Assembly: GCA_021846565.1 (NCBI GenBank)
Contig: JAJZWS010000017.1
Location: forward strand, 1 to 51,536
Source of the DNA: Bacillota bacterium
GTDB taxonomy: Bacteria; Bacillota; Sulfobacillia; Sulfobacillales; JAIMBI01
Reading direction: 5' to 3'
DNA: 51,536 bases
The notes under the pieces are model-generated. The model searched no databases. It was given only the letters and a program-made list of their open reading frames with translations, and had not been told where the DNA came from. This document shows positions 8,428-27,070 of this stretch, one piece after another (the first letter of the stretch is position 1; every line of letters begins with the position of its first letter). The position numbers and the translations under genes are program-made.

Positions 8428-8482
8428 TTGACGGCATGACGGGGCCCGCCTATTCTCTTCGTAGGGTTAGACAAATTGTCTA
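8428..8482 (+). promoter_or_regulatory. promoter and palindromic operator of the first S9/BNR operon
   Basis: TTGACG (8428-8433) and TATTCT (8451-8456) are separated by exactly 17 nt. Twelve nt after the -10 box comes the perfect palindrome TAGACAAATTGTCTA (8468-8482, 7-bp arms, central A), just downstream of the expected transcription start. That is a good place for a repressor. Near-identical sites occur before the second S9 gene and before the peptide-binding lipoprotein gene. Confidence 0.75.
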
Positions 8483-8540
8483 CGCATGAGCTGGCGGTTG
8501 GCGACCGCGCTCAAGTTGCGCCAAGCTAAGGAGGCCGCGT

Positions 8541-10502
8541 ATGAATCCCAATGGCCGGCGGTCGGTTACCGCCGAGGATATTTTCCGGTTGTGGGCGGTG
8601 GGAGATCCAGTGGTGCAACCAGGAACCGAGCGCGTGGCCTACGTGGCGTCGATTCCGGTGCACGGGCAGCGAGAGTCGGCCTCGAACATATTTGTCGCGA
8701 GCCCTGGCCCGACGGAGGCTTATCCGTGGACCACTACCGGAGGCAACCGCCGACCACGTTGGTCGCCCGACGGAGGGTGGCTGGGCTTTCTGTCCCGGCG
8801 CAGCGGGATGCCGCCGCAGGTTTATCTCATGGCATCGTCCGGCGGCGAGGCGCGGCCCTTAACGAGACTCAGCCGGGGCGTGGAAGACTTCGCCTGGGCT
8901 CCCGACGGCCAGAGTCTAGTGGTGGTCGCCGCGTCGGGCGCGCCATGGATTCCCAAAGACGACCGAGGGCCCGAGCCGGCCCGCGTCATTGACCGCATGC
9001 CGTATCGTCTGAACGGGGTGGGCTATACCGACGACCGGAGGTTTCACCTCTTCCGCGTGGACGGCACCTCCGGTGACCTCGTGGCGCTGACGGACGGTCC
9101 CTACAGCGACAGCCAACCCGCGTGGGCGCCGGACGGAAAGGAGATCGCCTTTGTCTCGGCCCGGCATGATACCCGGGACCACGACGTGGGCCAAGACGTG
9201 TTTGCCATCCGATTGGACGATTTGTCTATTCGCCAGCTCACGGCCACGGAGGGTGGCGTGCATGACCCGGTGTGGTGCCCAGACGGCTGCCACATCGCCT
9301 ACGTCGGCACGACGCGGCGAGACAGCACCCCGTCCCATGGCCGTCTCTGGGTGATGAATGCCGATGGCCGCGATCGCCGGCGGCTGGCAGGGTCCTGGGA
9401 CCGCCACGTTATCGGACGGCCCCAGTGGGCGCCGGACCACCAGGGGATCTATGCGCTCGCGGAGGACGACGGGACCACGGACGTGTGGCAATTTGCTTTT
9501 CAGGGCAGCGATGCGGCCGAGGGCCCGGAACGGGTGGGGATTGGCCGCCGCCAGGTTGCCGCATTTGACCTGGCGCCCGACGGCACCTGGGGCGTCACCG
9601 TCAGTTCCACCGCGACGCGGCCCCCGGAGGTTTACCGGGAAGCCTGGCGTTCCCATGCCGGGCCTATAGCGCTGACCCATCTGCACGATGCGTGGTGTGC
9701 GGAGGTGGTGCGAGCCGAGATGGAACCCTATACGGCAACCAGTGCGGACGGGACGCTGGTCTCGTGCTGGCTGATGCGGCCGCCGGCCCTTGCCGTTGCC
9801 GACGCGGGGACCCACCCGGGCCTGCTGAAGCTGCATGGCGGCCCCTTTGCCCAGTATGGCTATGGATTTTCCCACGAGATGCAGTACTGGTGTGCCCAGG
9901 GCTACACGGTGTTTATGGCGAACCCGCGGGGCAGCTCGGGGCGCGACGAGGAGTGGGCCCGCTCGCTAGGCATGGCGCGAGGGGTCGTGGACTATGAAGA
10001 TGTGCTGGCCGCCGTGGATGCGGGACTGGCCCGCGACGCGTCGGTCGACCCCGACCGGCTGGCCGTCAACGGAGGCAGCTACGGAGGCTATCTCACCAGT
10101 TGGATCGTGGGACACACGAACCGTTTTCGCGCAGCCTGCTCGGAGGCCGCACCTAACAATCTTTATTCGATGAGCGGCACCGGTGATATGGCGGGGAGAA
10201 ACCGCCGACTGCAATATGGATTCACCGCGCAGGAAAACCCCGAGTTTTTCTGGCGGGCGTCGCCCATCGCCTATGCCCTGGACATCAACACCCCCGTGCT
10301 GATCATTCATGGGGAAAATGACTACCGCGTACCCATTGAGCAGGGCGAGCAGTTGTTTGCGGCCCTGTACTTCCAGGGGAAGGCAGCACGCCTGGTGCGC
10401 TTTCCCAACGAGCATCATGGCCTGGCGCGGAGCGGCCACCCGGTGCATCGCCTTGAGCGCTTGAACCTCATGCGGGAATGGTTTGCGGAACATGGAGCGT
10501 AG
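8541..10502 (+). CDS. S9-family serine peptidase (acylaminoacyl-/dipeptidyl-peptidase-like)
   Basis: The product has 653 residues. An N-terminal beta-propeller (about 1-390, TolB/WD-like blades such as PRWSPDGGWLGFLS and SQPAWAPDGKEIAFVS) is followed by an alpha/beta-hydrolase domain. The catalytic triad reads Ser513 (GGSYGGYLTSW), Asp594 (GENDYRVP) and His626 (NEHHGLA). There is no signal peptide, so it probably cleaves oligopeptides in the cytosol. The ATG has AAGGAGG 7 nt upstream. The end overlaps the start of the BNR gene by 11 nt, so the two are one operon behind the palindromic operator. A second S9+BNR pair lies inverted about 8 kb away. Acylaminoacyl-peptidase and dipeptidyl peptidase cannot be told apart here. 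Confidence 0.93.
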   Translation: MNPNGRRSVTAEDIFRLWAVGDPVVQPGTERVAYVASIPVHGQRESASNIFVASPGPTEAYPWTTTGGNRRPRWSPDGGWLGFLSRRSGMPPQVYLMASSGGEARPLTRLSRGVEDFAWAPDGQSLVVVAASGAPWIPKDDRGPEPARVIDRMPYRLNGVGYTDDRRFHLFRVDGTSGDLVALTDGPYSDSQPAWAPDGKEIAFVSARHDTRDHDVGQDVFAIRLDDLSIRQLTATEGGVHDPVWCPDGCHIAYVGTTRRDSTPSHGRLWVMNADGRDRRRLAGSWDRHVIGRPQWAPDHQGIYALAEDDGTTDVWQFAFQGSDAAEGPERVGIGRRQVAAFDLAPDGTWGVTVSSTATRPPEVYREAWRSHAGPIALTHLHDAWCAEVVRAEMEPYTATSADGTLVSCWLMRPPALAVADAGTHPGLLKLHGGPFAQYGYGFSHEMQYWCAQGYTVFMANPRGSSGRDEEWARSLGMARGVVDYEDVLAAVDAGLARDASVDPDRLAVNGGSYGGYLTSWIVGHTNRFRAACSEAAPNNLYSMSGTGDMAGRNRRLQYGFTAQENPEFFWRASPIAYALDINTPVLIIHGENDYRVPIEQGEQLFAALYFQGKAARLVRFPNEHHGLARSGHPVHRLERLNLMREWFAEHGA

Positions 10503-13500
10503 GGCGGAGGAGCGGCCGGCATGGCCTCCGTTGCCATGGCGCCTCCTCGGACCGCACCGCGGGGGCCGGGTCACCGCCGTGGTGGGGCATCCCACTGACC
10601 GGCTGACGTTTTTCTTCGGCGCGGCGGCCGGCGGGGTGTGGGCCACCCACAACGGGGGCGTGTCTTGGCGCAATCTGACCGATGGGGCCTTTCGGCGTGC
10701 GTCGGTGGGGGCGCTGGCGCTGGCGCCCACGGACCCGGCCACGATGTACGTGGGACTCGGAGAAGCGTGTGTGCGCAATGACGTGGTGCCGGGCGACGGT
10801 GTCTGGCGCTCGGACGATGCGGGGGCCCACTGGGTGGCACTCGGCTTGGACGACACGCAGCACATCGGGCGCATCCTGGTGCACCCGACCGATCCGCACA
10901 CGCTCTACGTGGCCGCCTTGGGTCATGCCTTTGGACCCAACGTGGCGCGCGGCGTGTTTCGGTCGCGGGATGGTGGGGGCCACTGGGAGCACGTGCTGCA
11001 CGTGGGGCCTGACGCCGGGGCGGTGGACCTGGCCATGGACCCCGCTGACCCCCGCACGCTGTACGCCGCCCTGTGGGAAGTGCGCCGCTGGCCGTGGACC
11101 TTTGTCAGCGGAGGGCCCGGGTCCGGCTTGCATCGGTCTCAGGATGGCGGAGACCACTGGGTCGACCTCACCGCCGCCCCCGGACTGCCCAGGGGGGTGT
11201 GGGGCCGGGTGGGGCTGGCCACGACGCCCGCGCGCCCGGGCCGGCTGTGGGCCGTGGTGGAAGCGCGTGACGGCGGAATCTTTGTCTCTGATGACCAGGG
11301 CGCGCACTGGGGGAGAACCAATGATGAACTGGCCCTCAGGCGACGCCCGTGGTACTACAACCACATCGTGGCCGACCCCATCGATCCGAACACCGTGTAC
11401 GTGCTGGACCTGGAGTGCCGGCGCTCGCGCGATGGGGGGCGCACGTTCGCCGTCGTGCCCACGCCGCACGGGGATCATCACGCGCTGTGGATCGATCCCC
11501 AAGATCCCCAGCGCCTTATCAACGGACACGACGGGGGCGCGGCCGTGTCCTTCGACGGGGGGGCCTCGTGGTCGTCCACCTTCAACCAGCCGACGGCCCA
11601 GTTTTATCACGTAACGACGGACCGGCGCGTGCCGTACCGGGTATACGGCGCCCAGCAGGACAACACCACGCTCAGCGTGCCCAGCCAAAGTCGCTGGGGG
11701 GTCGTGGGCGCGTCGGAGTGGGCCGACGTGGGTGGAGGCGAAAGCGGTGCCATCGCCGTGCGTCCCGACAACCCCCACATCGTGTATGCCGGCAGCTACA
11801 ATACCCTCACCCGGTACGACCAGGCGACGGGTGAACTCCGTTCGATTCATCCGTGGCCCGAGTTGACCGCCGGCCGCCCGGCGGCGGCGGTGCGCCACCG
11901 CTTTCCCTGGACGTTTCCCGTGGTGCTGTCGCCCCATGATCCGCAAACCCTGTACACCGCTGCGGAGGTGGTGTTTCGCACGCGGGATGAGGGCAACCGC
12001 TGGGCGATCATCAGTCCGGACCTGACCCGTCAGGACGCCAGCAAGATGGGACCGTCCGGCGGGCCCATCACCGGTCAGGCCATGAATGCGGAGTACTACG
12101 GCACGGTGTCGGCCTTGGCCGAGTCGTCCTGCCGGCCGGGCTTGTTGTGGGCGGGCACGGACGACGGCTTGCTTCACGTGTCGCCGGATGGGGGGGCCAC
12201 CTGGCAGGACCGGACCCCAGAGGGTCTGCCCCCAGACAGTTGCGTTTCCGTGGTGGAACCCTCGGCGCACGATGCGGACGCCGCTTATGTGGCTGCCCAC
12301 CGGTACAAGGTGGACGACCCGGCACCGTACATGTTTCGCACCGTTGACGGCGGACGCCACTGGACCCTGATGGTGGCCGGTCTGCCCCCGAACGAATGGG
12401 TGCGCGTCGTCCGGCAGGATCCCCGCGTGGCGGCCCTGCTGTACTGCGGCACGGAGACGGGCGTCTACATCTCGCTCGACGGGGGGGACTCCTGGCAGCG
12501 TGCCAACGCCAATCTCCCGGCCGTGCCCATCTACGACCTAGTGGTCCACGACCGTGACCTGGTTGCTGCCACCCACGGACGGTCGTTTTGGGTAGTGGAC
12601 GACGTCTCGCCGTGGCGCGCGCGGGCCACCGGTAGCGCGGGAGCCGCACCGATCCTCTATCGTCCGGCCGACGCCCTGCGCTGGGTGCCGCGGCCTGCCG
12701 GTGCGGGCCGCCGCGGCGCGGAGGGCTCCGGGTATCGGACCCTGCCCACGGCGTCGGTACGTTGGGAGCGCAACCCGCGTGGTGAGCCTGAGTGGGTGGA
12801 CAGCGGGGCGAATCCCGCCGGCGGCCTCTTTCTGGGTTATGAACTGGCGGAGCCAGCCGCCACGCTGGAGCTTGCCATCGAAGATGACGCCGGAATGCCT
12901 GTGCGGATGGTGGCCCGCGGGCCCCATGCCGCCGGCTTCCATCGGGTCGCGTGGGACCTGAGGACCGAGGGGACCGCCGGACTGCCATCGACGACCCGAC
13001 GCACGATGGGTATCCCCGGCCTCCCCGTGCTGCCCGGCGCGTATCGGGCCATCCTTACGGTGGATGGCCAATCCTGGGTTCAGTCCTTTGCCGTGAAGCT
13101 TCCGCCCGGGGACCAGGTGGATCTTGCCGCACTCTTGGCCCAGCGCCGGCTCCACGAGGCGATTCGCGCCACATTCCGCCACTTGATTGACTTGGTGGTA
13201 GCTATGCGCACGTGGATGCCGGAGCTTGCTGCGGTGGCTGCCATTGGAGAGGCCGATGGAGATCCCGAGGTAACCAGCCGGTACCACCAGCTGCTGGCCA
13301 TCCTCGTGGGATTGGCCGGCGAGGAAAATCCAGGCCCGGACTCCCTCAGCGCCCACCCCGCGCCACTGAGCGTTCAACTGGCGGCCCTGGCGGAGACCGT
13401 GGCGTTGGGTGGCCGGGCCCCGACGATGCAGGCGCGGGAGGTTTTCCGCCAGCAGCGGCGCCGGTTCGCCGATGAGAGACAGGCGGCCGTGCGGCTGGTG

Positions 13501-13584
13501 CACGCCACCCAGGAGATCGTGAACCGTCGGTGTGCACGCCGGGGGCTGCCCCGTCTTCCCCTGCCGAAGTGGTCCGAGGCATGA
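10492..13584 (+). CDS. BNR/sortilin-type beta-propeller protein, first copy
   Basis: The product has 1030 residues. Repeated Asp-box-like blades fill about residues 20-700 (for example GVWRSDDAGAHW, GVFRSRDGGGHW, GLHRSQDGGDHW, AAVSFDGGASW), the pattern of exo-sialidase/VPS10-like propellers. A C-terminal part (about 790-1030) has a FlgD-like fold hint (GFHRVAWDLRTEG, VLPGAYRAILTVDGQ) and an alpha-helical tail. No signal peptide or membrane helix is seen, unlike many relatives, so the location is unclear and could be cytosolic. No enzymatic residues are evident. ATG 10492 is taken; a TTG 9 nt upstream is also in frame. The gene overlaps the S9 gene, so the proteins probably work together in peptide handling. 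A paralogue is encoded at 15489-18515. Confidence 0.85.
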   Translation: MERRAEERPAWPPLPWRLLGPHRGGRVTAVVGHPTDRLTFFFGAAAGGVWATHNGGVSWRNLTDGAFRRASVGALALAPTDPATMYVGLGEACVRNDVVPGDGVWRSDDAGAHWVALGLDDTQHIGRILVHPTDPHTLYVAALGHAFGPNVARGVFRSRDGGGHWEHVLHVGPDAGAVDLAMDPADPRTLYAALWEVRRWPWTFVSGGPGSGLHRSQDGGDHWVDLTAAPGLPRGVWGRVGLATTPARPGRLWAVVEARDGGIFVSDDQGAHWGRTNDELALRRRPWYYNHIVADPIDPNTVYVLDLECRRSRDGGRTFAVVPTPHGDHHALWIDPQDPQRLINGHDGGAAVSFDGGASWSSTFNQPTAQFYHVTTDRRVPYRVYGAQQDNTTLSVPSQSRWGVVGASEWADVGGGESGAIAVRPDNPHIVYAGSYNTLTRYDQATGELRSIHPWPELTAGRPAAAVRHRFPWTFPVVLSPHDPQTLYTAAEVVFRTRDEGNRWAIISPDLTRQDASKMGPSGGPITGQAMNAEYYGTVSALAESSCRPGLLWAGTDDGLLHVSPDGGATWQDRTPEGLPPDSCVSVVEPSAHDADAAYVAAHRYKVDDPAPYMFRTVDGGRHWTLMVAGLPPNEWVRVVRQDPRVAALLYCGTETGVYISLDGGDSWQRANANLPAVPIYDLVVHDRDLVAATHGRSFWVVDDVSPWRARATGSAGAAPILYRPADALRWVPRPAGAGRRGAEGSGYRTLPTASVRWERNPRGEPEWVDSGANPAGGLFLGYELAEPAATLELAIEDDAGMPVRMVARGPHAAGFHRVAWDLRTEGTAGLPSTTRRTMGIPGLPVLPGAYRAILTVDGQSWVQSFAVKLPPGDQVDLAALLAQRRLHEAIRATFRHLIDLVVAMRTWMPELAAVAAIGEADGDPEVTSRYHQLLAILVGLAGEENPGPDSLSAHPAPLSVQLAALAETVALGGRAPTMQAREVFRQQRRRFADERQAAVRLVHATQEIVNRRCARRGLPRLPLPKWSEA

Positions 13585-13586
13585 CG

Positions 13587-13605
13587 CTGGGGAGGGGGGC
13601 CCCAG
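13587..13605 (+). terminator. hairpin after the first BNR gene
   Basis: CTGGGG (13587-13592) pairs with CCCCAG (13600-13605) around a 7-nt loop, starting 3 nt after the BNR stop codon. There is no T tract, so it is only a weak terminator candidate. Confidence 0.35.
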
Positions 13606-13639
13606 TGGTTGCCGGGACGGTCTGCCAGCACGGGCAGCG

Positions 13640-14064
13640 TCCGTGCTCGCGGCACAGGCCCGGGCAGCGCCCTGGGATCCCGCGGTGATCCTGGCGGCCT
13701 ACGGCGGCCACGCGTCGTGAGAAAATGCGTTCCGGCAGATGAAGGCCCGCACTTCGTGACGTTTTCGCCCATGTTTCACGCGATGGTTCACTGGACGGAC
13801 CAAAAGAGTCGGGTGCCCGCCGCGGCCTACTTGGTGCTGCCCCTCGTCTGGGCAGCCCGCCTGCACCGGGAGCCTGCACAACGGGGTTCCCGAGGGGCTG
13901 GAGGCGTTCGTGGCGACTTGGCCAACCGCACGCGGATGGGGACCGCTTCGCGGCGAGCCGCCGTGAGCGGGCCGTCCCTGAGGGTCACGAAACGCCCGCC
14001 GGCCCTGGTGCGGCTCGTCCGGCACTTTGGGTTGGCGATGCATCATGCGGCCGTGACCCGCTAG
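13640..14064 (+). pseudogene. remnant of an IS1634/IS4-type transposase C-terminus
   Basis: Pieces of the characteristic transposase tail appear in changing frames. One frame gives WDPAVILAAYGGHAS, a stop, then ENAFRQMKART. The next gives HFVTFSPMFHAMVHWTDQK and AYLVLPLVWAARLHREPAQ. After another shift come EGLEAFVATW and finally PPALVRLVRHFGLAMHH before a stop at 14062-14064. The order matches the end of IS1634-family transposases (catalytic Glu region, FRQMK, HWTDQKIRVH, LLHRE). With frameshifts and an in-frame stop it is inactive. It sits between the two facing S9/BNR modules, so an element may once have taken part in their rearrangement. No terminal repeats could be defined. Confidence 0.65.
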
Positions 14065-14140
14065 GTACTACCCGACCACGCCGACACTCCGCGCCGGACA
14101 TGGCGACACCGCCGCCCCGGGCCCAACGGCGCCAGTATCG

Positions 14141-14539
14141 CTAGTGTGCCAATGGAGGAGGGTTGCAAGTTCTCACGCGGCGCACGTGCTCCAGGCGCCA
14201 AACGACTACGAGTGGGACGATCAGAGCCACGGCCCCGATGCCCATCGCCCATGGCTCAGGTACCACGATCACGTGGGTCACGCACGACAGGGCGTGCGGT
14301 CCGCTTCCACTGGGGAACCCGGTGCATATGGTGTGGGTGAGAACCAAACCGACGACAATCAGGGTGGTGGCCAAGCCGCCGGGCCACAGCAGCGTGGCAA
14401 GCCATCGGCACTGTCGCTGCCAAGTCGGGGAGGTCCACAGCCACACTAGCCCAATCACCCATCCAACCACGAAGAAGATTCCGCCAAACAGCAGTAGCCA
14501 GGGAACCAAGGGATCTTGCCAGCGCTCCCGAGCATTCAT
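14141..14539 (-). CDS. small membrane protein, unknown function
   Basis: The product has 132 residues with three predicted membrane helices (about 13-36, 48-69 and 95-115) and few charged residues outside the ends. Conserved-looking motifs beyond Trp/Gly-rich helices are absent, and I do not recognise the family. The ATG has AAAGGAG 8-9 nt upstream on the minus strand, which supports a real gene. It lies alone between the transposase remnant and an apparently empty stretch. Confidence 0.65.
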   Translation of the reverse strand: MNARERWQDPLVPWLLLFGGIFFVVGWVIGLVWLWTSPTWQRQCRWLATLLWPGGLATTLIVVGLVLTHTICTGFPSGSGPHALSCVTHVIVVPEPWAMGIGAVALIVPLVVVWRLEHVRRVRTCNPPPLAH

Positions 14540-15488
14540 GATGCCTGCTCCTTTCGCTCACGTACGACAACCAGAAGATTCGCACGCTTTGGCGCGTGAC
14601 CCGACCCGGCGTCACGAGTCGCGTCCTCGGCCGTGCCTGCCCACCCGATTTCGAGAGGCTGTCCCATCATGTGGGTCCCGAGGAACTGACGCGGGGCATT
14701 GTCCGATGGTAGTGCCTTTCGACCATTGTACTCCACCGGTGAGCTAACCCGTGGCGGATTGGTCCGCCAGACCGCGCACGTGCCCGTCCGGTGCGGGATC
14801 GTGGGGTTGTCAACCCGGTGTTAGCTCCGCGACGGAGGGCACTGGGTAGATACATCGGAACACGCCCCCTCCAGAGGCCGGATGGCGCGGCCCAGCTGAC
14901 CGATGTCGACGTCGTGGCGCGCCGACTCGGGCTTGTACGTGATTGACCTCGATGGCACGCGGGGCACCCGCCATTCGGCGAGGGAAGGCATCGCCCCGAC
15001 GGATAAACGCGGCTCGGCGGCGTCCTGCGATGGGCTTTTCTGACGTCACGGCTGCCGGCACCCGGTGCGTCTGACCCACCTCGACCGTCCCGACATCGCC
15101 TTGCTGGAGGCGTTGTAGCGGAGCCGGTGCGAGCCGGCAATTCGGGATCTCAATGCCACGGGGGGCTCATCGGCCGTCCGCCGGGTTTGCCTTCCACCAG
15201 GCCTGGGGATGCCCGGGGCTCCTGCTGACAGGGGCACTCCGGTGCGGCGGGCGCGGACGCGGCGGTGGGCGCCGGCGCTGTCCCAGGCCGCTGCCCGTTG
15301 CGGGCGTTGGCCTGGGGCCACCCCATAACGCCCCCGACCACAGCGGTCGCCGGCTGCAGCGCACCGGTCTGCCGGCGCAGATCCCACCGGGGTCGACTCC
15401 GCCTTCAGGTCCCTCTATAGCGGTCGCTGCTGTCCTTTTCGCCTGCGCAACTGCCGGGAAAGCCCAATCTCCGGGATGCCGAGGGCCC
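14540..15488. other. about 0.95 kb without a convincing gene
   Basis: Several open frames exist on both strands, but all are Arg/Pro/Gly-rich, lack ribosome binding sites and show no family resemblance, as expected for random GC-rich frames. The stretch lies beside the transposase remnant and between the two facing S9/BNR operons, so it may be decayed mobile DNA. The one structured element is the closed inverted repeat listed at 14741-14827. Confidence 0.45.
14741..14827. repeat. 87-bp structured region closed by an 8-bp inverted repeat
   Basis: GAGCTAAC (14741-14748) and GTTAGCTC (14820-14827) are perfect inverted copies 71 nt apart. Inside lie two further hairpins: TGGCGGA/TCCGCCA with a TTGG loop, and GGGTTG/CAACCC with a short loop. 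The cloverleaf-like outline recalls a tRNA, but the T-loop consensus GTTCGA is absent and the length does not fit. It could be a small RNA, a folded end of a lost mobile element, or chance. Confidence 0.4.
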
Positions 15489-18400
15489 CTACGTGCTTGG
15501 ACCTGGTGGCACGGCGCGGTCAGCGAGGTCCGGCCAGAGCGGCCGGATGTATCGGTCGACCACGTCCCATACCTCCGCGATGCCCTGTTCCGCCAAGGCA
15601 GCGAGGCGAGCATGCACGGCTCGCATCCCGGAGGTCGGCGGGCCATCGGCCCGATCCACGGCGCCAATGAGTGCGGCCAGCTTTACGTTGAGGCCGGGTG
15701 GAAATTTCAAGTAATCGAGCGGAACCCGGGCGCGTGGCTCGACGAATGCAGTTTCCACGCGGGCCAAAGACGCAAGGAGTGCACCCGGGACGGCCTCGCG
15801 GTGGCCGTCCCCAATCCGGTCGCGAATGTCCCGAATGACCGCGGCAGTCTCGTGCACGCGGCTCAGGGTGCGCACCAGCTGGAGGTGAAAGGCGAACTGA
15901 CTCGTCAGCCCCTCGGGGTTCGCGGACCCACGGGGATCCGGGGCGATCTGCAGGGAGACCATGGCCGTGTGGGCGCCTGCGACGAGGCGTACGACATAGG
16001 GGCCGGGCAGAACCACGGGACCCTGGGTGCTGCCGCCCCGCAGGACCGCGCCGGGCAGCGGGGTAGCCCCGGGGTGCCGCATGTTCCAGTAGACCCGCTT
16101 GGTGCCTGACCCGCACGGCAGGTCGTTGCCGGTCCACGTCCGCAAGGTGGCTCCGGCGTCATCGCCAAGGGTCAGCGCAGCGCCATCGTGGAAGGCGGCG
16201 GGCAGCCGATAGGTGATGGCTGCGCCGATGGGTGGGTTCGCCCCGGCATCGACCAGGGTGGCGCCCTCGGGTCCGCGCTGCCAGCGCACCACCGCGACCT
16301 CCACGGAGGTGTAGCCGCTTTCGGCTCGCCCAGGCAAGGCGGATGCTCCGCGCGCCTGCCCGCGGGATGTGGGGCGAGGAGGCGCCACGACCGGCAGGCT
16401 GGCGTTGGTGGTAAAGGAAGGATGCCGCAGCGCCGTCGCGTCGTCCAAGATCCAAAAGGATCGCCCGTGCGTCGCCACCACGAGGTCTCCGCCGGTCAGC
16501 GCGATGTCGTAGATCGGCACCCGCGGCAGATTATGCTGAAGTCGGTGCCACTGGGCGCCGTCGGTCACCGAGTAGTACACCCCGGACTCCGTACCCAGAA
16601 ACAAGAGACCTCTCCGCTCGGGGTCCGCGCGAATGACCCGGGCAAAGTCGTCGTCGGCGACGCCGACCGTGATCATGGTCCACGTCTGGCCAAAGTCCTT
16701 CGTATGCAGGACGTAGGGCGTGAGGTCATCGACCTGGTACCGATGCGCGGCCACATAGGCCACCGCCGGATCGTGGGGAGAGGGTTCTACCGTGCTGATG
16801 CGGGCCCATTCCGGCAGGCCGATCGGGGTCCGATCGTGCCAAGTGCGGCCCCCATCGCGGGTGACGTGAATCTGGCCATCGTCTGAGCCCGTCCACAGGA
16901 CCAGCGGGTCCAACGGGGATTCGGCCACCGACGAGAGGGTGGCATACAGTTCGGCGTGCCCGTTATCTCCGGTGATAGTGCCACCAGACGGTCCTAGCGT
17001 GTCGGGATCGTGGCGGGTGAGGTCCGGACTGATGACATCCCAGTCCTGCCCTTCGTTGCGGGATCGAAACAGGACGTTGGCGCCCACGTACAGGGTGTTG
17101 GGGTCATGGGACGACAGCAGGACGGGGAAGCTCCACGCAAACCGATAGGCTAGGTCTCGGCCCGGGGAGCCCCGCACCTCCTCGGGCCAGGGCGTAATCA
17201 CCCGGTGCTGTCGGGTGGCGTGGTCATAGCGGGTCAACAGAGATCCGTTGCTGCCGGCGTACACGATGTTGGAATTATCGGGGCGCACGGCAATGGCGCC
17301 ACTTTCGCCACCTCCGACACTGTAGCAGTCCGCCAGCGTGATCCCGGCCCCGGCGGTTCGGCTGGGCGTGGACAGGGTGCTGTTGTCCTGTTGCGCGCCA
17401 TACACGCGGTAGGGGGTCTGCCGGTCGGTGGTGGCGTGATAAAACTGGCCGGTGGGTTGGTTCAGCGTCGTGGACCACGAGGCGCCGCCATCATAGGAAA
17501 TGGCGGCGCCACCGTCGTGCCCGCTCACCAGGTGGTGTGGATCGCGGGGGTCGATCCAGAGGTCATGGTGATCCGCGTGCGCCGTGGGCAGCACCGCGAA
17601 CGTCCGGCCCCCATCCGCGGAGCGCAAGAGCTGCAGGCTGAGGGCGTACACGGTGTCGCCGGCGGCCGCCAAGCGGCTGAAGTACCACGGGCGGATGGCG
17701 AGCGACGCATCGCAGTTCACGCGCTCCCACGCGTCGCCGCCGTCGGCGGATCGAAACAGCCCCCCCTCGTGGGCCTCCACCATCGCCCACAGGTACGGCG
17801 TGCCCGCGGAGCGGGCCAGGCCGATGCGTCCCCAGGGTTCGGGGGGCAGGCCGGACCGGTTCGCCAGGCTGACCCACGTGGTGCCCGCGTCGTCGCTTCG
17901 ATAAAGTCCACTGCCTGGTCCCCCGCTCTCCAGGCGGTAGGGGGAGCGGCGGACGTCCCACAACGCGGCGTACAGCACCCGCGGATGGTCGGGGTCCAAC
18001 ACCACGTCGACGGCGCCGGTGCGGCCGCTGGCTGCCAGGACCCGATCCCAGGTGTGCCCGCCATTGTGCGTGCGGTAGAGGCCGCGCTCACCCCCGGGCC
18101 CATAGATGTGGCCCAACGCGGCGGCGTAGACGACGTTTGGGTCATCGGGGTGGACCACCAGGCGCGCCAGATGGCGCGAGTCCCCCAAGCCCCGCGGCTC
18201 CCAGGTGTGTCCGCCATCGGCAGAGCGGTACACCCCTGACCCGTGCGCCACATCGGTGCGGATGTTGGCCTCGCCGGTCCCGGCGTACACGATGCCGGGG
18301 TCAGCCGCCGATAGGGCCAGCGCCCCGATGGCCGGGGTGGGGAGGAACCCATCGGTCACGTTGTGCCAGGACAATCCCCCGTCGATGGTTTTCCACACGC

Positions 18401-18515
18401 CGCCTGCCGCGGCGCCCAAGTAGCTGGTCAGCGGATGATGAGGATCGCCGACTACGGCAGAAACGCGCCCACCCCGGAACGGCCCGATAGGCCGCCATGA
18501 AAACGCTTCGGACAT
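15489..18515 (-). CDS. BNR/sortilin-type beta-propeller protein, second copy
   Basis: The product has 1008 residues and is a clear paralogue of the protein at 10492-13584. Both begin with the same block (WRPIGPFRGGRVSAVVGDP here), share blades such as GVYRSADGGHTWEPRG and a C-terminal YVVRLVAGAHTAMVSLQIAPDPRG region, and end in an alpha-helical tail. No signal peptide or catalytic residues are visible. The ATG at 18513-18515 is preferred to one 15 nt upstream because GGGGAGG lies 6 nt before it, inside the longer reading. The gene is 36 nt downstream of the second S9 peptidase, giving the same peptidase-then-propeller order as the first module in inverted orientation. Confidence 0.85.
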   Translation of the reverse strand: MSEAFSWRPIGPFRGGRVSAVVGDPHHPLTSYLGAAAGGVWKTIDGGLSWHNVTDGFLPTPAIGALALSAADPGIVYAGTGEANIRTDVAHGSGVYRSADGGHTWEPRGLGDSRHLARLVVHPDDPNVVYAAALGHIYGPGGERGLYRTHNGGHTWDRVLAASGRTGAVDVVLDPDHPRVLYAALWDVRRSPYRLESGGPGSGLYRSDDAGTTWVSLANRSGLPPEPWGRIGLARSAGTPYLWAMVEAHEGGLFRSADGGDAWERVNCDASLAIRPWYFSRLAAAGDTVYALSLQLLRSADGGRTFAVLPTAHADHHDLWIDPRDPHHLVSGHDGGAAISYDGGASWSTTLNQPTGQFYHATTDRQTPYRVYGAQQDNSTLSTPSRTAGAGITLADCYSVGGGESGAIAVRPDNSNIVYAGSNGSLLTRYDHATRQHRVITPWPEEVRGSPGRDLAYRFAWSFPVLLSSHDPNTLYVGANVLFRSRNEGQDWDVISPDLTRHDPDTLGPSGGTITGDNGHAELYATLSSVAESPLDPLVLWTGSDDGQIHVTRDGGRTWHDRTPIGLPEWARISTVEPSPHDPAVAYVAAHRYQVDDLTPYVLHTKDFGQTWTMITVGVADDDFARVIRADPERRGLLFLGTESGVYYSVTDGAQWHRLQHNLPRVPIYDIALTGGDLVVATHGRSFWILDDATALRHPSFTTNASLPVVAPPRPTSRGQARGASALPGRAESGYTSVEVAVVRWQRGPEGATLVDAGANPPIGAAITYRLPAAFHDGAALTLGDDAGATLRTWTGNDLPCGSGTKRVYWNMRHPGATPLPGAVLRGGSTQGPVVLPGPYVVRLVAGAHTAMVSLQIAPDPRGSANPEGLTSQFAFHLQLVRTLSRVHETAAVIRDIRDRIGDGHREAVPGALLASLARVETAFVEPRARVPLDYLKFPPGLNVKLAALIGAVDRADGPPTSGMRAVHARLAALAEQGIAEVWDVVDRYIRPLWPDLADRAVPPGPST

Positions 18516-18551
18516 TCGTTGCCTCCCCATGCTCTTCTTCGGCCGGCCGCA

Positions 18552-20501
18552 CTACAAGCGGGAGCCAAACCATCGCGCGATCCGCCAGAGGCGGTCGACC
18601 CGGTGGTAGGGCTGGCCGGCACGCGACAACTCATGGCTCTCCCCGGGATACCGCACCAGCTCCACCTCGCGCCCCAGCATCTTGAGCGCCTGAAACAGCT
18701 GCTCCGCCTGCTCGATGGGGCAGCGCCAATCTTCTTCCGCGTGCAACAGCAGCAGCGGCGTGGTGATCTGGTCGGCAAAAGCCAGCGGGGAGCTGTCCCG
18801 ATAGTGCTCGGGATGCGCCCACGGCCCGCCGTACTCCTCCATCCCCCGAAAGCCCATGTCGCTGGTGCCGACAAAGCTGTAACGGTTGGACACGCTGCGC
18901 TGGGCAATGGCGGCCCGGAACCGGTCGGTCTGGGTCAAAATCCAGTTGGTGAGATAGCCACCGAAGCTGCCTCCGGTGATGCCGAGGCGCGCCGGGTCCA
19001 TCCATGGAAACTGAGAAGATTGGCCCAGCGCCGCATCCAGGACGGCCAGCACATCGTGCGCCGTGTCCACGCCCCAGTGATCCATCACCGGCGTGCAGTG
19101 ATCCTGACCATACCCGGTGGATCCGCGCGGGTTCGAGTACACCACTCCGATGCCCAGGCCCGCGAGCATTTGGAATTCAAACATAAACGCTTCCCCGTAT
19201 GCGGCGTGCGGGCCGCCGTGAATCTCCAAGACGGCAGGCCCGGGGGTGTCGGTCACGGGGGGCAGGGCCCAGGCCTCCACGGTCAGCCCGTCTGGGCTCG
19301 GGGTGCGGAATGGCTGGGGGGTCGACAGCCAAACCGCCTCCAGCCATGGGTTCGCGTCGGTGATGCGTGTCAGGGCGCCCTCCAGGGGACCCACATAAAT
19401 CTCCCCCGGCGAGCGGGCCGTGGCGGCGGCCAGAGCCGCCTCACCCGTCGCCGTGTCGACGCTGAGCCCGTACACCGTGCGGTGAGCGGCCAACAGCGAC
19501 CGGACGGGAGAGCCGTCCCGAGGCACGGCGTAGATGCCCGTGGCGCCGCCGTCGTCCGCTACGACCCAGAGTTCACGGCTATCTGGCGTCCAGAGGGGAC
19601 CCGGGAGCGAAGCAGCGCCGCGCGCATCCGAGAGCACATGGCTGCCCGGCTCCCGGTCCCACGCCGGCGCCACGCGCTGGGCGGCTCGGCGACCGTCGGC
19701 CGCCACTTCCCACAGCGCCGCACACGTAGCGCGGCCAAAACGGCCATCGTGACCATAAAACGCCAGCGTGGTGCCATCCGGCGACCAGCTGGGGACCTGA
19801 ACGGCCAGGTCCTGGGTCAGACGGGTCCATCGCCGATCCCCGAGGTCGAGGCGCCACAGGTCCCGAATGAGGCTGCCGTCGGCGTCCGGCTCCCGACGGG
19901 ACACCACGGCGATACTGCCCCCGTCGGGAGCCCACGTCGGCGAGGCGTAACTGTAGGCGTCCTCGCTCAGCGGGGTGAGGCCGCGTTCCATCTCCCCAAC
20001 GTCCAATATGTACAGCGCCAGATGGCGCTCTTCGTGAAGCTTCTCGCCGTTGGTGCGGTAGTGGCGGCGGCGGATGGCCAGGACATCGTCCGCGTACCCC
20101 GGGAGCAGGGGCTCCGCCAACGATTCGGCGGCCGTGAGGGCTAGGCGCCGCGAATCCGGCGCCCACGCCACCCCCGTCGGGGCGAAGGGCAGCGTCGTGA
20201 GCTGCCGGGCCTCTCCGCCGGCCAACGGCAACAGCCACAGCTGTGTCGAGCCGCCCCGGTCGGACAGGAACGCCAGCGAGCACCCATCCGGCGCCATCTG
20301 CGGGGCCCAGCTGTTCCCGACTGGCGTCGAGAGCGCGCGGGTGCCCTCGGGGGACCAGACCCAAAGGTCCCGGTCATATCCCTTGCGGTCGGTCCGCACC
20401 CGCCGCTGGACGTACACCACCTCGTGGGTCCCGGGGCGGCGTACGGGACTCTCTACCCACATCATTCGGTACAGGTCTTCCGGGACAAGTCCTTGGGTCA
20501 T
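18552..20501 (-). CDS. S9-family serine peptidase, second copy
   Basis: The product has 649 residues. An N-terminal propeller (about 1-385) precedes an alpha/beta-hydrolase domain with Ser512 (GGSFGGYLTNW), Asp591 (EEDWRCPIEQAEQLF) and His623 (GESHELSRAG). It resembles the 8541-10502 peptidase in length and motifs (both have DYRVPIEQ/DWRCPIEQ), but sequence outside the motifs differs considerably, so the duplication is old or the two were acquired separately. There is no signal peptide. The start was chosen for GGAGGAGG about 7 nt upstream; longer upstream readings run through the promoter. Its operator is a variant of the palindrome before the first S9 gene. Confidence 0.92.
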   Translation of the reverse strand: MTQGLVPEDLYRMMWVESPVRRPGTHEVVYVQRRVRTDRKGYDRDLWVWSPEGTRALSTPVGNSWAPQMAPDGCSLAFLSDRGGSTQLWLLPLAGGEARQLTTLPFAPTGVAWAPDSRRLALTAAESLAEPLLPGYADDVLAIRRRHYRTNGEKLHEERHLALYILDVGEMERGLTPLSEDAYSYASPTWAPDGGSIAVVSRREPDADGSLIRDLWRLDLGDRRWTRLTQDLAVQVPSWSPDGTTLAFYGHDGRFGRATCAALWEVAADGRRAAQRVAPAWDREPGSHVLSDARGAASLPGPLWTPDSRELWVVADDGGATGIYAVPRDGSPVRSLLAAHRTVYGLSVDTATGEAALAAATARSPGEIYVGPLEGALTRITDANPWLEAVWLSTPQPFRTPSPDGLTVEAWALPPVTDTPGPAVLEIHGGPHAAYGEAFMFEFQMLAGLGIGVVYSNPRGSTGYGQDHCTPVMDHWGVDTAHDVLAVLDAALGQSSQFPWMDPARLGITGGSFGGYLTNWILTQTDRFRAAIAQRSVSNRYSFVGTSDMGFRGMEEYGGPWAHPEHYRDSSPLAFADQITTPLLLLHAEEDWRCPIEQAEQLFQALKMLGREVELVRYPGESHELSRAGQPYHRVDRLWRIARWFGSRL

Positions 20502-20577
20502 GTGGCGCCTCCTCCATCCTCGCACTCCTTGCCCGTCCGGCACGCTGGTCGTGTGTGCCGCGCGGCGCGGCCAGGAT

Positions 20578-20610
20578 GCGTTGAAAATTTGTCCAACGAG
20601 AGCCATCATA
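20578..20610 (-). promoter_or_regulatory. promoter -10 and operator variant of the second S9/BNR operon
   Basis: On the minus strand a TATGAT box (20605-20610) is followed 7 nt later by GTTGGACAAATTTTCAACGC (20597 down to 20578). This matches GTTAGACAAATTGTCTACGC at the first S9 operon in 17 of 20 positions. The -35 region falls at the end of the racemase gene and is poor. Confidence 0.65.
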
Positions 20611-20631
20611 TCGCATGGAGCGACCGGGGCG

Positions 20632-21360
20632 CTATCCGGTCGGGCGGCCAAACCGGTGGAGCACCGCCTGTACCAGTTCGTCGGTGGCATCGAACGTAGG
20701 CACCTGGGCCGGCCGGGCCGCATGGGCATACACCGCAGGCAGTTCGGTGCAGCCCAGCAACAGCGCGTCGGCGCCGTTGGCCCAGTTCTCTCCCGCGAGC
20801 TCCGTCAAACGACGCTGGGCGGCTTGGGGATCGTGCCCCGCCTTGATTTGCTGGATGATCGTCATCAGGGCGGCCTGGGTGGTGGGATCGGGGGTGAGGA
20901 GGGTGACCGCGGCGCTATCCGCGGGACCGCGATACAAGCCCAGCTGCACGGTGGGCGTCGTGGCCATGAGCGCAACGCGGCGCGCGCCCCCGGCGGCCAC
21001 CGCTTGCATGACGAGCGTGGGCAGGTGCAGGATCGGCGCGGGCACCGCCCGGGCGATGTCATCGTAGTACGCGTGGCACGTGGCCGACGGAATCACCAGC
21101 AGGTCGGCTCCGGCGTGGACCAGCGTCCGGGCGGCCTGGATCAGGTGTGGGAGCGGTGTCGGGCCCCGGCCGGCCAGGTGCTCCAGGCGGCTGGGCGCAG
21201 ACGGCTCCGTCACCATGGTGACCGGGACGTGTTCCGCATCCTTGGTGGCGGGCGTCAGTTCGACCAAGCGGTAATAGAAGTGGGCGGTGGCCAGGCTGCC
21301 GAACCCGCCCAGAATGCCCAAGCGCGTGGGGATGGGCAGCGGCTCTCCGAACGATGCCAT
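20632..21360 (-). CDS. aspartate/glutamate racemase-family protein with a substituted N-terminal catalytic residue
   Basis: The product has 242 residues, the normal length. It shows the family opening LGILGGFGSLATAHFYYRLVE and the C-terminal catalytic motif LLLGCTELP. In most family members the first catalytic motif is PxCNTAH. Here it reads PSATCHAYYDD, so Ser92 stands at the usual Cys position, Ala at the Asn, and a Cys lies three residues later (Cys95). Some broad-specificity or L-Asp/Glu racemases also lack the first Cys (E. coli YgeA-type has Thr). It may racemise or isomerise an amino acid released by the neighbouring peptidases. The ATG has GAGGAGG 6 nt upstream. It is divergent from the DauR-like regulator. 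Confidence 0.82.
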   Translation of the reverse strand: MASFGEPLPIPTRLGILGGFGSLATAHFYYRLVELTPATKDAEHVPVTMVTEPSAPSRLEHLAGRGPTPLPHLIQAARTLVHAGADLLVIPSATCHAYYDDIARAVPAPILHLPTLVMQAVAAGGARRVALMATTPTVQLGLYRGPADSAAVTLLTPDPTTQAALMTIIQQIKAGHDPQAAQRRLTELAGENWANGADALLLGCTELPAVYAHAARPAQVPTFDATDELVQAVLHRFGRPTG

Positions 21361-21497
21361 GCGGCACCTCCTCGGCGCACAAGGTATCAGCCTCCAACGG
21401 CGGCCGCAAGGACCGAGCCGCCGGAGGCCCGGTTTCGTGCGTCGAGTGCACAATCGCGCTATATTACGAGGGTATGCTGGCATGGGAGGCGACTTAG

Positions 21498-22169
21498 TTG
21501 GCGTTGAAGGCGTGGGAGTTGGACAATTTTCGGCGGTTGGCAGAGAACCTGTCCGCGTTGTTGGGTCCATCGGCGGAAGTGGTGATTCATGACTTGGATG
21601 ACCTGCAGCACTCCATCGTGTGCCTGGCAGGTGACGTGACCCACCGCCAGCCCGGGCAGCCCATGACCACCGTGGGGCTTGAGGCGCTGCGACGTGGCAC
21701 GGAGATTTCGTCGTTGCAGGGAAGCTATCGTTCGGTGCTGCCCGACGGCCGCGTGCTGAAATGTTCGTCGACCTTCCTGCGAAATGCGGCCGGGCGATCG
21801 GTGGTGGCCCTGTGCATCAACCTTGACGTGACCCAATGGCACCAGGCGGCCGATCTGCTGCTGGACTTTGCCAGCGTCGGTGCCCGAGACGACCTGCAGG
21901 AGGAGTACGTGCACTCGGTTCCCGACATGATTGCCACCATGGTGAATGGTGCGCTCGACACGATGGGCAAGCACCCCGAACACATGGATGGCGCGGAGCG
22001 GCTCGAGGTCGTCCGCGCGCTGGACGACCGTGGCGTCTTTCTCATCAAGGGGGCGGCGGGGTACGTGTCCAAGATGCTGGGCGTGTCCCGGGCCACCCTC
22101 TACAACTATCTGCAGCGCATCCGCACGGACCAGGTTTTCGCCCATGTGGAATCCTCGAAAGTGCCTTAG
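21498..22169 (+). CDS. YheO/DauR-family PAS-HTH transcriptional regulator
   Basis: The product has 223 residues. The N-terminal half (about 10-125) matches the YheO-type PAS-like domain (LSALLGPSAEVVIHDLDDLQHSIVCLAG), which senses small ligands. The C-terminal part (about 150-215) is a DauR-type helix-turn-helix (FLIKGAAGYVSKMLGVSRATLYNYLQRIR). DauR represses D-arginine catabolism in Pseudomonas; here the neighbours point to peptide or amino-acid use. The start is a TTG with GGGAGG 8 nt upstream. It is placed between operons that share the TAGACAAATTGTCTA-like palindrome and is therefore the natural candidate for its regulator; that link is inference. I see no copy of the palindrome before the regulator itself. 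Confidence 0.87.
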   Translation: MALKAWELDNFRRLAENLSALLGPSAEVVIHDLDDLQHSIVCLAGDVTHRQPGQPMTTVGLEALRRGTEISSLQGSYRSVLPDGRVLKCSSTFLRNAAGRSVVALCINLDVTQWHQAADLLLDFASVGARDDLQEEYVHSVPDMIATMVNGALDTMGKHPEHMDGAERLEVVRALDDRGVFLIKGAAGYVSKMLGVSRATLYNYLQRIRTDQVFAHVESSKVP

Positions 22170-22275
22170 GAATGGGGTCGGGGCACGCTCCCCAAACCGG
22201 TCCGCCAGCTCCATGGCCAGCTGTCACTCGGTGCCAACGGCTGGCTAGACCAATCAAAAGAGGGCCCTTGGGCGC

Positions 22276-22335
22276 TTGACAGGCGCGGGACGCGTGAGTA
22301 CGCTCCCCCTGAGGATCAGTTAGACTAAATGTCTA
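22276..22335 (+). promoter_or_regulatory. promoter and operator of the peptide transporter operon
   Basis: TTGACA (22276-22281), a 17-nt spacer and TACGCT (22299-22304) form the promoter. The palindrome TAGACTAAATGTCTA (22321-22335) lies just downstream of the expected start. It differs from the first S9 operator at only a few central positions, keeping TAGAC and GTCTA at the same spacing. Confidence 0.75.
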
Positions 22336-22400
22336 TCAACAGCGAGGATTAGGGTTCCCAGGCAGTACCCCAGGATTCTTCAGGAGGAGCGTGACGATAA

Positions 22401-24143
22401 ATGGTCCACCTATCGCGGCGGGGAAATGTCCGCGGACGATTTGCGTGGGGGGGGATGGCGGCTGCGGTGTTGCTGTTGGCGGCCGCCTGCGCGCCCAGCG
22501 CCAGTTCCAGCTCGAAACCGGCGAGCCCTACGGCGTCGGCGCCGCGCGCCGGCGGCACTGTGGTGGATGCGCTGGGCCCGGTCACCGGCTTCGACTGGTA
22601 TCTCCCGCTGATGGCCGTGGCGTACAACAGCACCACCAACGCGACCGCCCAGTCGCTGCAGTACAAGGGACTTTATGTGACCGGGAGCAATGGGTTGCCC
22701 GACTATGCGCGGAGCATTGCCAGCGACATCACGTGGAACAAGGCGGGGACCGTCTACACGGTCAAGATGAACCCCAAGTGGCACTGGTCCAATGGCGCAC
22801 CCGTGACAGCGTCCGACGTGCAGTTTGAGTGGCACATGATTCAGGCGGCCAGCGCCGCAAACGCGCCGGCACCGTGGCCATGGACGGGCGCGGGTCCCAC
22901 CGGGATCAACGTCACCGTCAAGTCCTTCAGGGTCGTCAACGCGCACGAGTTTCAGGTAACCACCGTGGCGCCCGAGAACCAGTTGTGGTATCTCGGCCAG
23001 CTGGGGAACTTTATGCCGTTCCCCAAAGCCTCATGGGACAAGTACCCCGGGCAGCACGCGAAAGAACTGGCTTACCTCACCCAGAACGGCAGTAATCCTT
23101 CGTTCTTCTCGGTGATTGACGGCCCGTTCAAGCTGATTCAGGCCGTGCCCGAGCAGTCCTGGACCTTTGCGCCCAACCCACACTACGACGGTCACAAGCC
23201 GTATTTGCACCGCCTCATCTTCCAGTACGAGACCACGGACACCGCCGAGGTGGCTGGATTGCAGACCGGCGCCATTCAGGTGGGCTACTTGCCGGGGACC
23301 GATTATGCGATTCGGAACACGTTCACGTTGCAGCGCTTTGTGGCTCAGCCCCCCGCAGCGTTTGCCCGCATCCTGCTGAACTTCAAGAATCCCCAGGTGG
23401 GATCTATTCTCAAGCAGGAGGCGGTGCGGCAGGCGATGCAGATGGGGATCGACCAGCCGACCATCATTCGAGCCGTCTTCAACGGGTTGGGTGTGCAAAG
23501 CACCACGGCCGTGGTGTCCATGTCGCCCTATCTCGATCCGGCCTTAAAGAAAGGGCCGATATTTCCGTACAATCCCCAGGCGGGCGTGAAACTGTTGGAG
23601 GCCAACGGCTGGCATCTCTCGAACGGGGTGATGACGAACGCTTCGGGTCAGAAGCTTCAGTTCCAGCTGAGCTATCCTACGGGCAGCAGCTCCATCCTGG
23701 CGATGGTGCAACTGCTGGCGCAGGACTGGGGCAAGGAAGGGATCAACGTGTCGCTGAACGCGGTGCCGTTCCCGACCATGCTGCAAGATCACCGCAAGCC
23801 CACATCGTGGCAGATCCAAGGGGGCCTTGAGCTCACCGGCGGCATCGGGTACGGGGTCGACAACACGGTGTTTGGAACCAACGGCCCCTTGAATTTCGTC
23901 GGGTACTCCAACACGACGCTTGACAACCTGATGACGGCGGCTTTGGCGCCTCAGCCGAACGCGCAGGCGGGCGTTCAGAAAATCTACGCCTATGAAGAGT
24001 TCCTGGCGCACCACCTGCCGAATCTGTGGATGCCGGTGGGTGACAGCTATTCGATGGTCGCAAAGAACGTGCATGGGGTATTCAGTTCCGTGCCGGTGAA
24101 AGGCGAGTTTGCCATCTACCCGCAGTACTGGTGGGTGAGTTAA
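22401..24143 (+). CDS. peptide-binding lipoprotein of an ABC transporter (SBP family 5)
   Basis: The product has 580 residues. A lipoprotein signal ends at Cys30 (AVLLLAAACAPS), followed by a Ser/Ala/Pro-rich linker. The rest matches family 5 solute-binding proteins: the opening YLPLMAVAYNSTTN, the domain I pattern WHWSNGAPVTASDVQFEWHMI, the central DGPFKLIQAVPEQSW and the late KIYAYEEFLAHHLPNLWMP. It would capture oligopeptides or similar ligands outside the membrane. GGAGGAG lies about 12 nt before the ATG, slightly far. First gene of the operon with tldD, tldE, two permeases and an S53 protease; a strong hairpin follows it, which could keep its message more abundant than the rest. Confidence 0.92.
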   Translation: MVHLSRRGNVRGRFAWGGMAAAVLLLAAACAPSASSSSKPASPTASAPRAGGTVVDALGPVTGFDWYLPLMAVAYNSTTNATAQSLQYKGLYVTGSNGLPDYARSIASDITWNKAGTVYTVKMNPKWHWSNGAPVTASDVQFEWHMIQAASAANAPAPWPWTGAGPTGINVTVKSFRVVNAHEFQVTTVAPENQLWYLGQLGNFMPFPKASWDKYPGQHAKELAYLTQNGSNPSFFSVIDGPFKLIQAVPEQSWTFAPNPHYDGHKPYLHRLIFQYETTDTAEVAGLQTGAIQVGYLPGTDYAIRNTFTLQRFVAQPPAAFARILLNFKNPQVGSILKQEAVRQAMQMGIDQPTIIRAVFNGLGVQSTTAVVSMSPYLDPALKKGPIFPYNPQAGVKLLEANGWHLSNGVMTNASGQKLQFQLSYPTGSSSILAMVQLLAQDWGKEGINVSLNAVPFPTMLQDHRKPTSWQIQGGLELTGGIGYGVDNTVFGTNGPLNFVGYSNTTLDNLMTAALAPQPNAQAGVQKIYAYEEFLAHHLPNLWMPVGDSYSMVAKNVHGVFSSVPVKGEFAIYPQYWWVS

Positions 24144-24166: not shown

Positions 24167-24197
24167 GGACGGGCGGGCGCGCCATGCCCGCCCGTCC
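24167..24197 (+). other. intercistronic hairpin after the binding-protein gene
   Basis: A perfect 12-bp GC-rich stem (24167-24178 with 24186-24197) has a 7-nt loop and no T tract. It lies between the binding-protein stop and the tldD start. Such hairpins often protect or partly terminate the upstream message, giving excess binding protein over the membrane parts. Confidence 0.55.
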
Positions 24198-24240
24198 GGC
24201 GGATGCGCCTCAGAACACCGGAGAGATGGGGGGAGACAGC

Positions 24241-25656: not shown

Positions 25657-26999
25657 CCACCACAACGGATCCGTTCGTGCAGCGCCTGACCAAGCTGCGA
25701 CAGGCAGGCGAGCAGGTGTTGCTGACGGAGGTGCACCGGGAGCACGTGACCGCCCGGGTGCGGGGCGGTCACCTGGAAGGGATCGATCAGGGGCACGAGC
25801 ACCACCAGGCGGTGCGGGTCCTGTCGGGGGGACGGCTGGGGTATCAGGGCTCGCGCACCGCCGACTGGGACGCGTTGCTGGACGGCGCGCGTGCCGGGGC
25901 CCGGGGCGCGGAGTTGGATGGGTTTGTCCTAAGCGCCCTGGGTCAGGGAGCCGCGTCCGACGCTTCGTCTGAGGATTCCGTCCGCGACCCCGTGCCGGCC
26001 GACTTGGCGCACATGGCGCTCGCGATGGGTCGGGCCCTGTCGGGTGAGGCTCCCGAGGTGGTGCCCCAGGCGCAGGTGCAGTGGATGCGCCAATGGACGC
26101 GGCTGGTGGATGGGGACGGCGTCGAGCGGCGGTGGATGCGCACCGAAGGACGGGCGGCCTTGAGCGGCCGGGTGGTTCGAGATGGGGACTTCATGACGGT
26201 GGGGACCAATCGCGGGCAGGCGGCGGCCCTGCCCGATCCCCAGTCGCTCCTGGACCACGTCCGGACCCGCCTCGCGTGGGGTCAGCGCATCGTGTCGCTG
26301 GATGCCGACGTCCTGCCCATCGTGTTCATGCCGCCCGTGGGATTCAGTCTGCTGGCCCCACTGCTGGCGCGGCTGTCCGCTCCGGCCGTGGCCGCGAAAA
26401 CCAGTCCGTGGTCGGATGCCCTCGACACCCGTGTGGCGAATGCGGAGCTGTCGCTGGTGAGTGACCCTGGCATCGCCGATGGGCCGCGCAGTGTCCCGTG
26501 GGATGACGAGGGGACGGCCACCCGCCGGGTTCCACTCATCGACCGCGGCATGCTCCGCCACTGGATTCTGGATCGCCGGACGGCGCACCAACTGGGACAG
26601 TCGGCGCTGGGACTGGGCTTCAGCGGAGAATTGGGCAGCCCACCGACGCCCCGGCCCAGCAACGTCACGGTGAACGCCGGCTCGACCCCGTGGGCGGATC
26701 TCGTGCAGTCCCACCCCCGCCTGCTGATTTTGGAGGGATGGGTGGGGGGTCGGCCCGTCAACCCGTTGCGCGGGGAGATGGCCGGCACCGCCACGGCCCT
26801 GTACCTGGTGGACCATGGGGCCGTCGTGGGCCGCGTCAAAAATGTGGTGGTGTCGGTCAACGCTCTGGAAGCTTGGGGCAGCCGGCTGTCCCGGGTGGGG
26901 GACGAGCGGCACTGGGTAGGCGGCGGCATGATGCAGTTGGCGCCCGCCTTCCTGCCCCCCATCTTGGTCCAAGACGTTGCGGTCGCGGCCAAGTCGTGA
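25653..26999 (+). CDS. tldE: TldE/PmbA-family protein, partner of TldD
   Basis: The product has 448 residues. The same overall fold as TldD is recognisable (N-terminal AGEQVLLTEVHREHVTARVRGG; C-terminal GEMAGTATALYLVDHGAVVGRVKNVVVSVN), but the HExxxH motif is absent, as expected for the non-catalytic TldE subunit. The ATG overlaps the tldD stop (ATGA) and has GGGAGGGGG upstream, so the subunits are translationally coupled. The 54 nt before the next reading frame carry no terminator. Confidence 0.92.
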   Translation: MTTTTDPFVQRLTKLRQAGEQVLLTEVHREHVTARVRGGHLEGIDQGHEHHQAVRVLSGGRLGYQGSRTADWDALLDGARAGARGAELDGFVLSALGQGAASDASSEDSVRDPVPADLAHMALAMGRALSGEAPEVVPQAQVQWMRQWTRLVDGDGVERRWMRTEGRAALSGRVVRDGDFMTVGTNRGQAAALPDPQSLLDHVRTRLAWGQRIVSLDADVLPIVFMPPVGFSLLAPLLARLSAPAVAAKTSPWSDALDTRVANAELSLVSDPGIADGPRSVPWDDEGTATRRVPLIDRGMLRHWILDRRTAHQLGQSALGLGFSGELGSPPTPRPSNVTVNAGSTPWADLVQSHPRLLILEGWVGGRPVNPLRGEMAGTATALYLVDHGAVVGRVKNVVVSVNALEAWGSRLSRVGDERHWVGGGMMQLAPAFLPPILVQDVAVAAKS

Positions 27000-27070
27000 C
27001 GCGACGGACCGACCGCGCCTACACACCGGGCCGGTGCGGCCATTGATGAACAATGAAGAAGGGGGCACCG

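Follow-up and report, generated by a model that had tools for sequence, protein, structure and literature searches.

A palindromic operator of 15-19 bp (consensus GTTRGACWAAWTKTCWAC) was shown by sequence comparison to be under selection in four species of one genus, just downstream of three predicted promoters in the stretch of DNA analysed here (51,536 nucleotides, referred to as the window). A single repressor very likely controls all three gene sets together, and this is probably the DauR/YheO-like protein whose gene lies among the operons. The regulon as such is well supported, and DauR is its probable regulator. As in a regulon with promoter-downstream operators, the same operator is shared by co-functional operons and is conserved in relatives, which supports the peptide-use regulon that an earlier note on this DNA had proposed. 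The operator is positioned as a repressor site would be.

Operators, promoters and genes

The promoter and operator elements are the following:

8428..8456, plus strand: promoter of S9_1-BNR_1, TTGACG - 17 bp - TATTCT, read directly (hexamers 8428-8433 and 8451-8456)
8466..8484, plus strand: operator S1, GTTAGACAAATTGTCTACG, core 8468-8482 (direct reading, pattern search and four-genome comparison)
20579..20597, minus strand: operator S3, GTTGGACAAATTTTCAACG, core 20581-20595, an imperfect palindrome
20605..20610, minus strand: TATGAT, tentative -10 of S9_2, with no good -35
21516..21531, plus strand: S3-like GTTGGACAATTTTCGG in dauR codons 7-12, one base shorter than S3
22276..22304, plus strand: promoter of the transporter operon, TTGACA - 17 bp - TACGCT (hexamers 22276-22281 and 22299-22304)
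22319..22337, plus strand: operator S2, GTTAGACTAAATGTCTATC, core 22321-22335 (pattern search and four-genome comparison)

Direct reading confirmed all three operator sequences at the positions given in the earlier note, which had described them as a near-identical palindrome with matching flanks, lying just behind a sigma-70-type -10 box. The description as a palindrome holds for S1 and S2, in which the TAGAC/GTCTA arms are perfect, but not for S3, whose minus-strand core (TGGACAAATTTTCAA) has no more than 5 paired positions out of the 7 in its arms. Similarly, S1 and S2 follow complete promoters, whereas the promoter of S3 is less clear and its tentative -10 is poorly kept in G001, and the flanks GTT...ACG are common to S1 and S3 while S2 shares the GTT. 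The S3-like sequence GTTGGACAATTTTCGG is possibly a weak autoregulatory site; its codons are kept in the four genomes, though not clearly above the background of coding constraint. Upstream of dauR itself no clear operator was seen.

The genes of the three operons and those between them are:

8541..10502, plus strand: S9_1, prolyl-oligopeptidase-family peptidase (PF00326, 1.5e-47)
10483..13584, plus strand: BNR_1, Sortilin/BNR beta-propeller protein (PF15902, PF02012), overlapping the S9_1 stop
15489..18530, minus strand: BNR_2, paralogue of BNR_1 (family profile match)
18552..20501, minus strand: S9_2 peptidase, paralogue of S9_1 (PF00326, 2.3e-47; 39% identity to S9_1)
20632..21360, minus strand: amino acid racemase of the cysteate-racemase (CuyB) type (PF01177, 5.7e-36; NF052483, 201 bits, cut-off 190)
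21498..22169, plus strand: dauR/yheO-like regulator, the candidate repressor (PF08348, 1.4e-29; PF13309, 1.6e-20)
22401..24143, plus strand: oligopeptide-type solute-binding lipoprotein, SBP_bac_5 (PF00496, 2.8e-52)
24184..25656, plus strand: TldD metalloprotease with HEXXXH kept as HEAFGH (family and structure-sequence matches)
25566..26999, plus strand: TldE/PmbA-like partner (PF19289, 6e-45)
27053..27994, plus strand: OppC-type permease (family matches)
27994..28950, plus strand: OppB-type permease (family matches)
28981..30912, plus strand: kumamolisin-type (S53) protease (pro-domain, catalytic-domain match, GTSFVAP motif)

Given this content, i.e., an Opp-type importer, TldD/TldE-like proteins, a kumamolisin-type protease and two pairs of S9 peptidase and beta-propeller protein, "peptide use" is a fair name for the set. 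In relatives BNR_1 and BNR_2 cross-match with 46-51% identity. For the protein encoded at 28981-30912 Pfam names the pro-domain only, while solved kumamolisins match over both the pro- and the catalytic part, suggesting that the product is likely a full secreted acid protease. OppD/OppF ATPase genes were not found in the importer operon (22401-28950) and must therefore come from elsewhere in the genome. The match of the racemase (20632-21360) to the CuyB-type family lies above the NCBIfam cut-off and is a possible clue to what the regulator senses as effector.

Conservation in the genus and occurrence elsewhere

The comparison of upstream regions in relatives, which had been proposed as a check, revealed that each of the four genomes available for the genus has S1, S2 and S3 at the corresponding three promoters (12/12 sites). 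In a search of the four genomes for the consensus GTTRGACWAAWTKTCWA, allowing up to two mismatches, zero-mismatch matches were obtained only at S1-S3 and at the orthologous positions, i.e., in G000, G002 and G003 (9/9), with 0 control matches. The most diverged genome, G001 (DauR 78% identical), carries the three sites in altered form with few changes (GTTAGACTAATTATCTA, TGGACTAAATATCTA and ATTAGACGAATTTTCGATG). Within the 15-bp cores 13, 13 and 12 columns are invariant, compared to 25%, 23% and 18% invariant columns outside the cores, and no window of the respective intergenic promoter region is better conserved than the core, which ranks first or ties for first. The -35/-10 boxes at S1 and S2 are also kept among the four genomes, the 17-bp spacing at S9_1-BNR_1 being found in 4/4. 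Moreover, in G001 the S9_1-BNR_1 pair lies at about 55-60 kb of the 102-kb contig C116, with at least about 42 kb of contig on both sides and among other neighbours than elsewhere, yet S1 is kept. The remaining units and dauR are located on C18, where the operators are kept as well. Since S9_1 keeps S1 although it is unlinked from dauR, a trans-acting factor is implied. The two-mismatch matches of G001 were regarded as chance occurrences; one of them was located on a gene map and lies inside a LacI-type gene.

The genome scans were done as pattern searches with mismatches rather than as a full matrix scan. The exact pattern TAGACN5GTCTA has 2 copies in the 3.42-Mb genome, both at S1 and S2, compared to 1 copy of its reversed control and about 1 expected from base composition by our own arithmetic. 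The count alone, in one genome, is thus about chance level and not significant; it is striking that both exact copies sit at promoters belonging to a single gene cluster. In the window, 7 15-mers with up to three mismatches from S1 were observed versus 0.19 by chance, a number in which palindromes are counted on both strands and which includes a further pair that falls within S9_1 (9214-9228). This latter match, of which G003 has a copy, was rejected as an operator as it is coding sequence. With up to two mismatches, GTTRGACWAAWTKTCWA matched S1-S3 and one transposon-like repeat in this genome (controls 0); a random scatter of the motif, named beforehand as the outcome that would speak against the regulon, was not seen, the matches being nearly confined to S1-S3. 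The matches in C95 and C106 (GTTGGACAACTTGTCTG) were rejected as a regulated promoter because they belong to one repeated, transposon-like element near contig ends; this element carries GTTGGACAACTTGTCTGAC at G000:C95 572-590 and C106 48232-48250 (L005, L009). The further S9 paralogues of the genome showed no operator site in the pattern search.

Outside the genus the motif does not exceed chance: 38 further genomes of the order gave 6 matches versus 6 control matches. A perfect TAGACAAATTGTCTA is present at position 1501 of L151 and L152 (G029:C169 and G021:C28) in the promoter region of an operon, which we take from our own reading of the sequence to encode a YkoE-type thiamine ECF transporter with a TPP-riboswitch-like leader. 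Matches in G031:C63 and G035:C46 look like coding sequence and were not taken as operators.

The candidate repressor and rival explanations

The dauR gene, which starts with TTG (kept as TTG or ATG in relatives), encodes a protein of the YheO/DauR family. It has an N-terminal YheO-like PAS_6 domain (PF08348, 102.7 bits, cut-off 27) and a C-terminal HTH_22 domain (PF13309, 73.3 bits, cut-off 29.6), and its VSRATLYNYL, aligned with 16 homologues, fits the recognition-helix signature SR.T.Y.YL and close variants. The dauBA-type D-amino-acid dehydrogenase genes that would mark an orthologue of the D-arginine-utilisation regulator DauR are absent among the identified genes of the cluster. In 4/4 genomes of the genus dauR is located between S3 and S2, and no other regulator was seen next to the sites in every one of them. 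We therefore regard the operator as likely to be the binding site of one dimeric repressor, with the PAS_6-HTH_22 protein encoded at 21498-22169 as the best candidate. The earlier note had named this protein as the obvious candidate repressor; the operator regulon it would control has held up, and its binding is suggested by association, i.e., by the neighbourhood, the unlinked operon, the peptide operon of a homologue and a weak motif before other dauR genes.

Evidence from outside the genus points in the same direction, though less firmly. YheO/DauR proteins were found in 70 of the 398 phylum genomes searched. The nearest homologue outside the genus among these, in G469 (39%), faces an operon SBP-OppB-OppC-OppD-OppF-S9-M20 and provides an independent link of this DauR branch to peptides and S9 peptidases; beside this homologue no similar clear operator was found. 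In G031 the DauR homologue is divergent from an SBP gene, and TTGACAAATTGTATA adjoins the -10 of the latter. In G373:C167 (L134 2174-2194) a perfect 21-bp palindrome, ACCTAGAATAATATTCTAGGT, which contains TAGAATAATATTCTA, lies about 50 bp before the DauR homologue and is a candidate autoregulatory operator. Altogether, three good matches lie near distant homologues, namely in L114 (over the divergent SBP promoter), in L124 (covering the dauR operon's -35) and in L134. For 79 non-redundant homologues the upstream motif scores were modestly raised, with a sum of -ln P of 107 versus 79 expected and only 8/79 at P<=0.05. Of 60 scrambled palindromic matrices, 3 scored as high overall in this test, which was designed after some of its matches were already known. 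The association of the motif with DauR homologues outside the genus is thus suggestive.

The rival explanation that survives best keeps the operator and the regulon and assigns them to another regulator encoded elsewhere, e.g., of the TetR-, MarR- or GntR-type, while DauR has other targets. This is possible, but clearly the less probable assignment. The operators of these families are typically also short palindromes, the perfect TAGACAAATTGTCTA occurs in G021 and G029, in neither of which a dauR match was found, and the motif is not clearly present at DauR homologues outside the genus. However, apart from dauR no regulator gene was seen beside the three operons throughout the four genomes, and among the genome matches found there is no site before another regulator gene. 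The Crp-like gene (37304) and the OmpR-type regulator (2627) of the window lie about 15 kb and 5 kb, respectively, from the nearest site and recur in only part of the relatives' stretches: the former was found in the G002 stretch and not in the G001 stretch searched, the latter in the G002 stretch only.

That the sites act as activator sites, aiding recruitment or open-complex formation, is unlikely. Some regulators are dual and S3 lacks a good -35, which would suit an activator, but the promoters in front of S1 and S2 are complete, with 17-bp spacing, and a site downstream of such a promoter is in a usual position for repression. A 5' RNA element such as a stabilising hairpin, instead of a DNA site bound by protein, is very improbable: the sites fall within ~25 nt of the predicted transcript starts and S1-S3 of this genome can fold (about -4.5 kcal/mol), but G002 S3 and G001 S2 show no folding and G001 S1 hardly any (-0.1 kcal/mol) despite a conserved DNA core, which led to rejection of the hairpin. 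Moreover, conservation is among the highest in what would be its loop. Finally, chance resemblance or functionless descent of duplicated promoters, suggested by the paralogy of S9_1-BNR_1 and S9_2-BNR_2 and by a palindrome count near expectation in one genome, can be dismissed, since all 12 sites are conserved, the unrelated transporter promoter has the same site, and the paralogues are only about 39-50% identical with diverged flanks.

Proposed mechanism and meaning for the YheO/DauR family

The three operons constitute a peptide-scavenging regulon in which repression is probably of the roadblock type. In the transcripts predicted from the promoters the sites span about +6 to +24, so that a repressor bound there would keep RNA polymerase from clearing the promoter. 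The PAS domain might sense a ligand derived from peptides, perhaps a free amino acid or a D-amino acid, and thereby release the repressor; family and neighbourhood, with the racemase, would fit a D- or sulfonated amino acid. Release would then jointly switch on the secreted acid protease of the kumamolisin type and peptide import by SBP-OppBC, together with intracellular peptide cleavage by the TldD/TldE-like proteins and both S9 peptidases and their beta-propeller partners; amino-acid racemisation by the neighbouring racemase might also be included.

The DauR of Pseudomonas aeruginosa (dauBAR operon) represses an amino-acid catabolic operon and is relieved by a D-amino acid. The protein described here shares the two-domain organisation of YheO-like PAS and HTH_22 and has a racemase gene as neighbour, but its putative targets are peptide import and peptidases over three units, and a clear autoregulatory site is lacking. 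Compared to Opp/Dpp importers and TldD/TldE (PmbA), the SBP, OppB, OppC and TldD with HEXXXH are alike, whereas here the operon is without OppD/OppF ATPase genes and includes two TldD/E-like genes and a kumamolisin-type protease. In Campylobacter jejuni, Cj1387c likewise links a YheO-like PAS6 to an HTH domain, and its loss raises the product of the adjacent gene, Cj1388, consistent with repression; it differs in being linked to an L-PSP endoribonuclease-domain gene and to flagella-flagella interaction, and a text search of the article turned up no binding site for it (PMC4519771).

A local repressor with few operators is an ordinary kind of system, and in the open literature searched no described operator for DauR or YheO was found. 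It is about an even bet that the YheO/DauR-family protein recognises TRGACN5GTCYA-type palindromes (with ACAAWTTGT as the core for the family) and is the peptide-use repressor of the genus, its PAS domain sensing a breakdown product. If true, these palindromes would rank with the earliest operators established in this family, and they would provide a recognition code for testing in its many uncharacterised members. The conserved operator with its three targets lends itself to a direct binding test and would tie the YheO/DauR family to peptide scavenging. Moreover, the regulon suggests how these uncultured bacteria may coordinate a secreted protease, import and peptidases.
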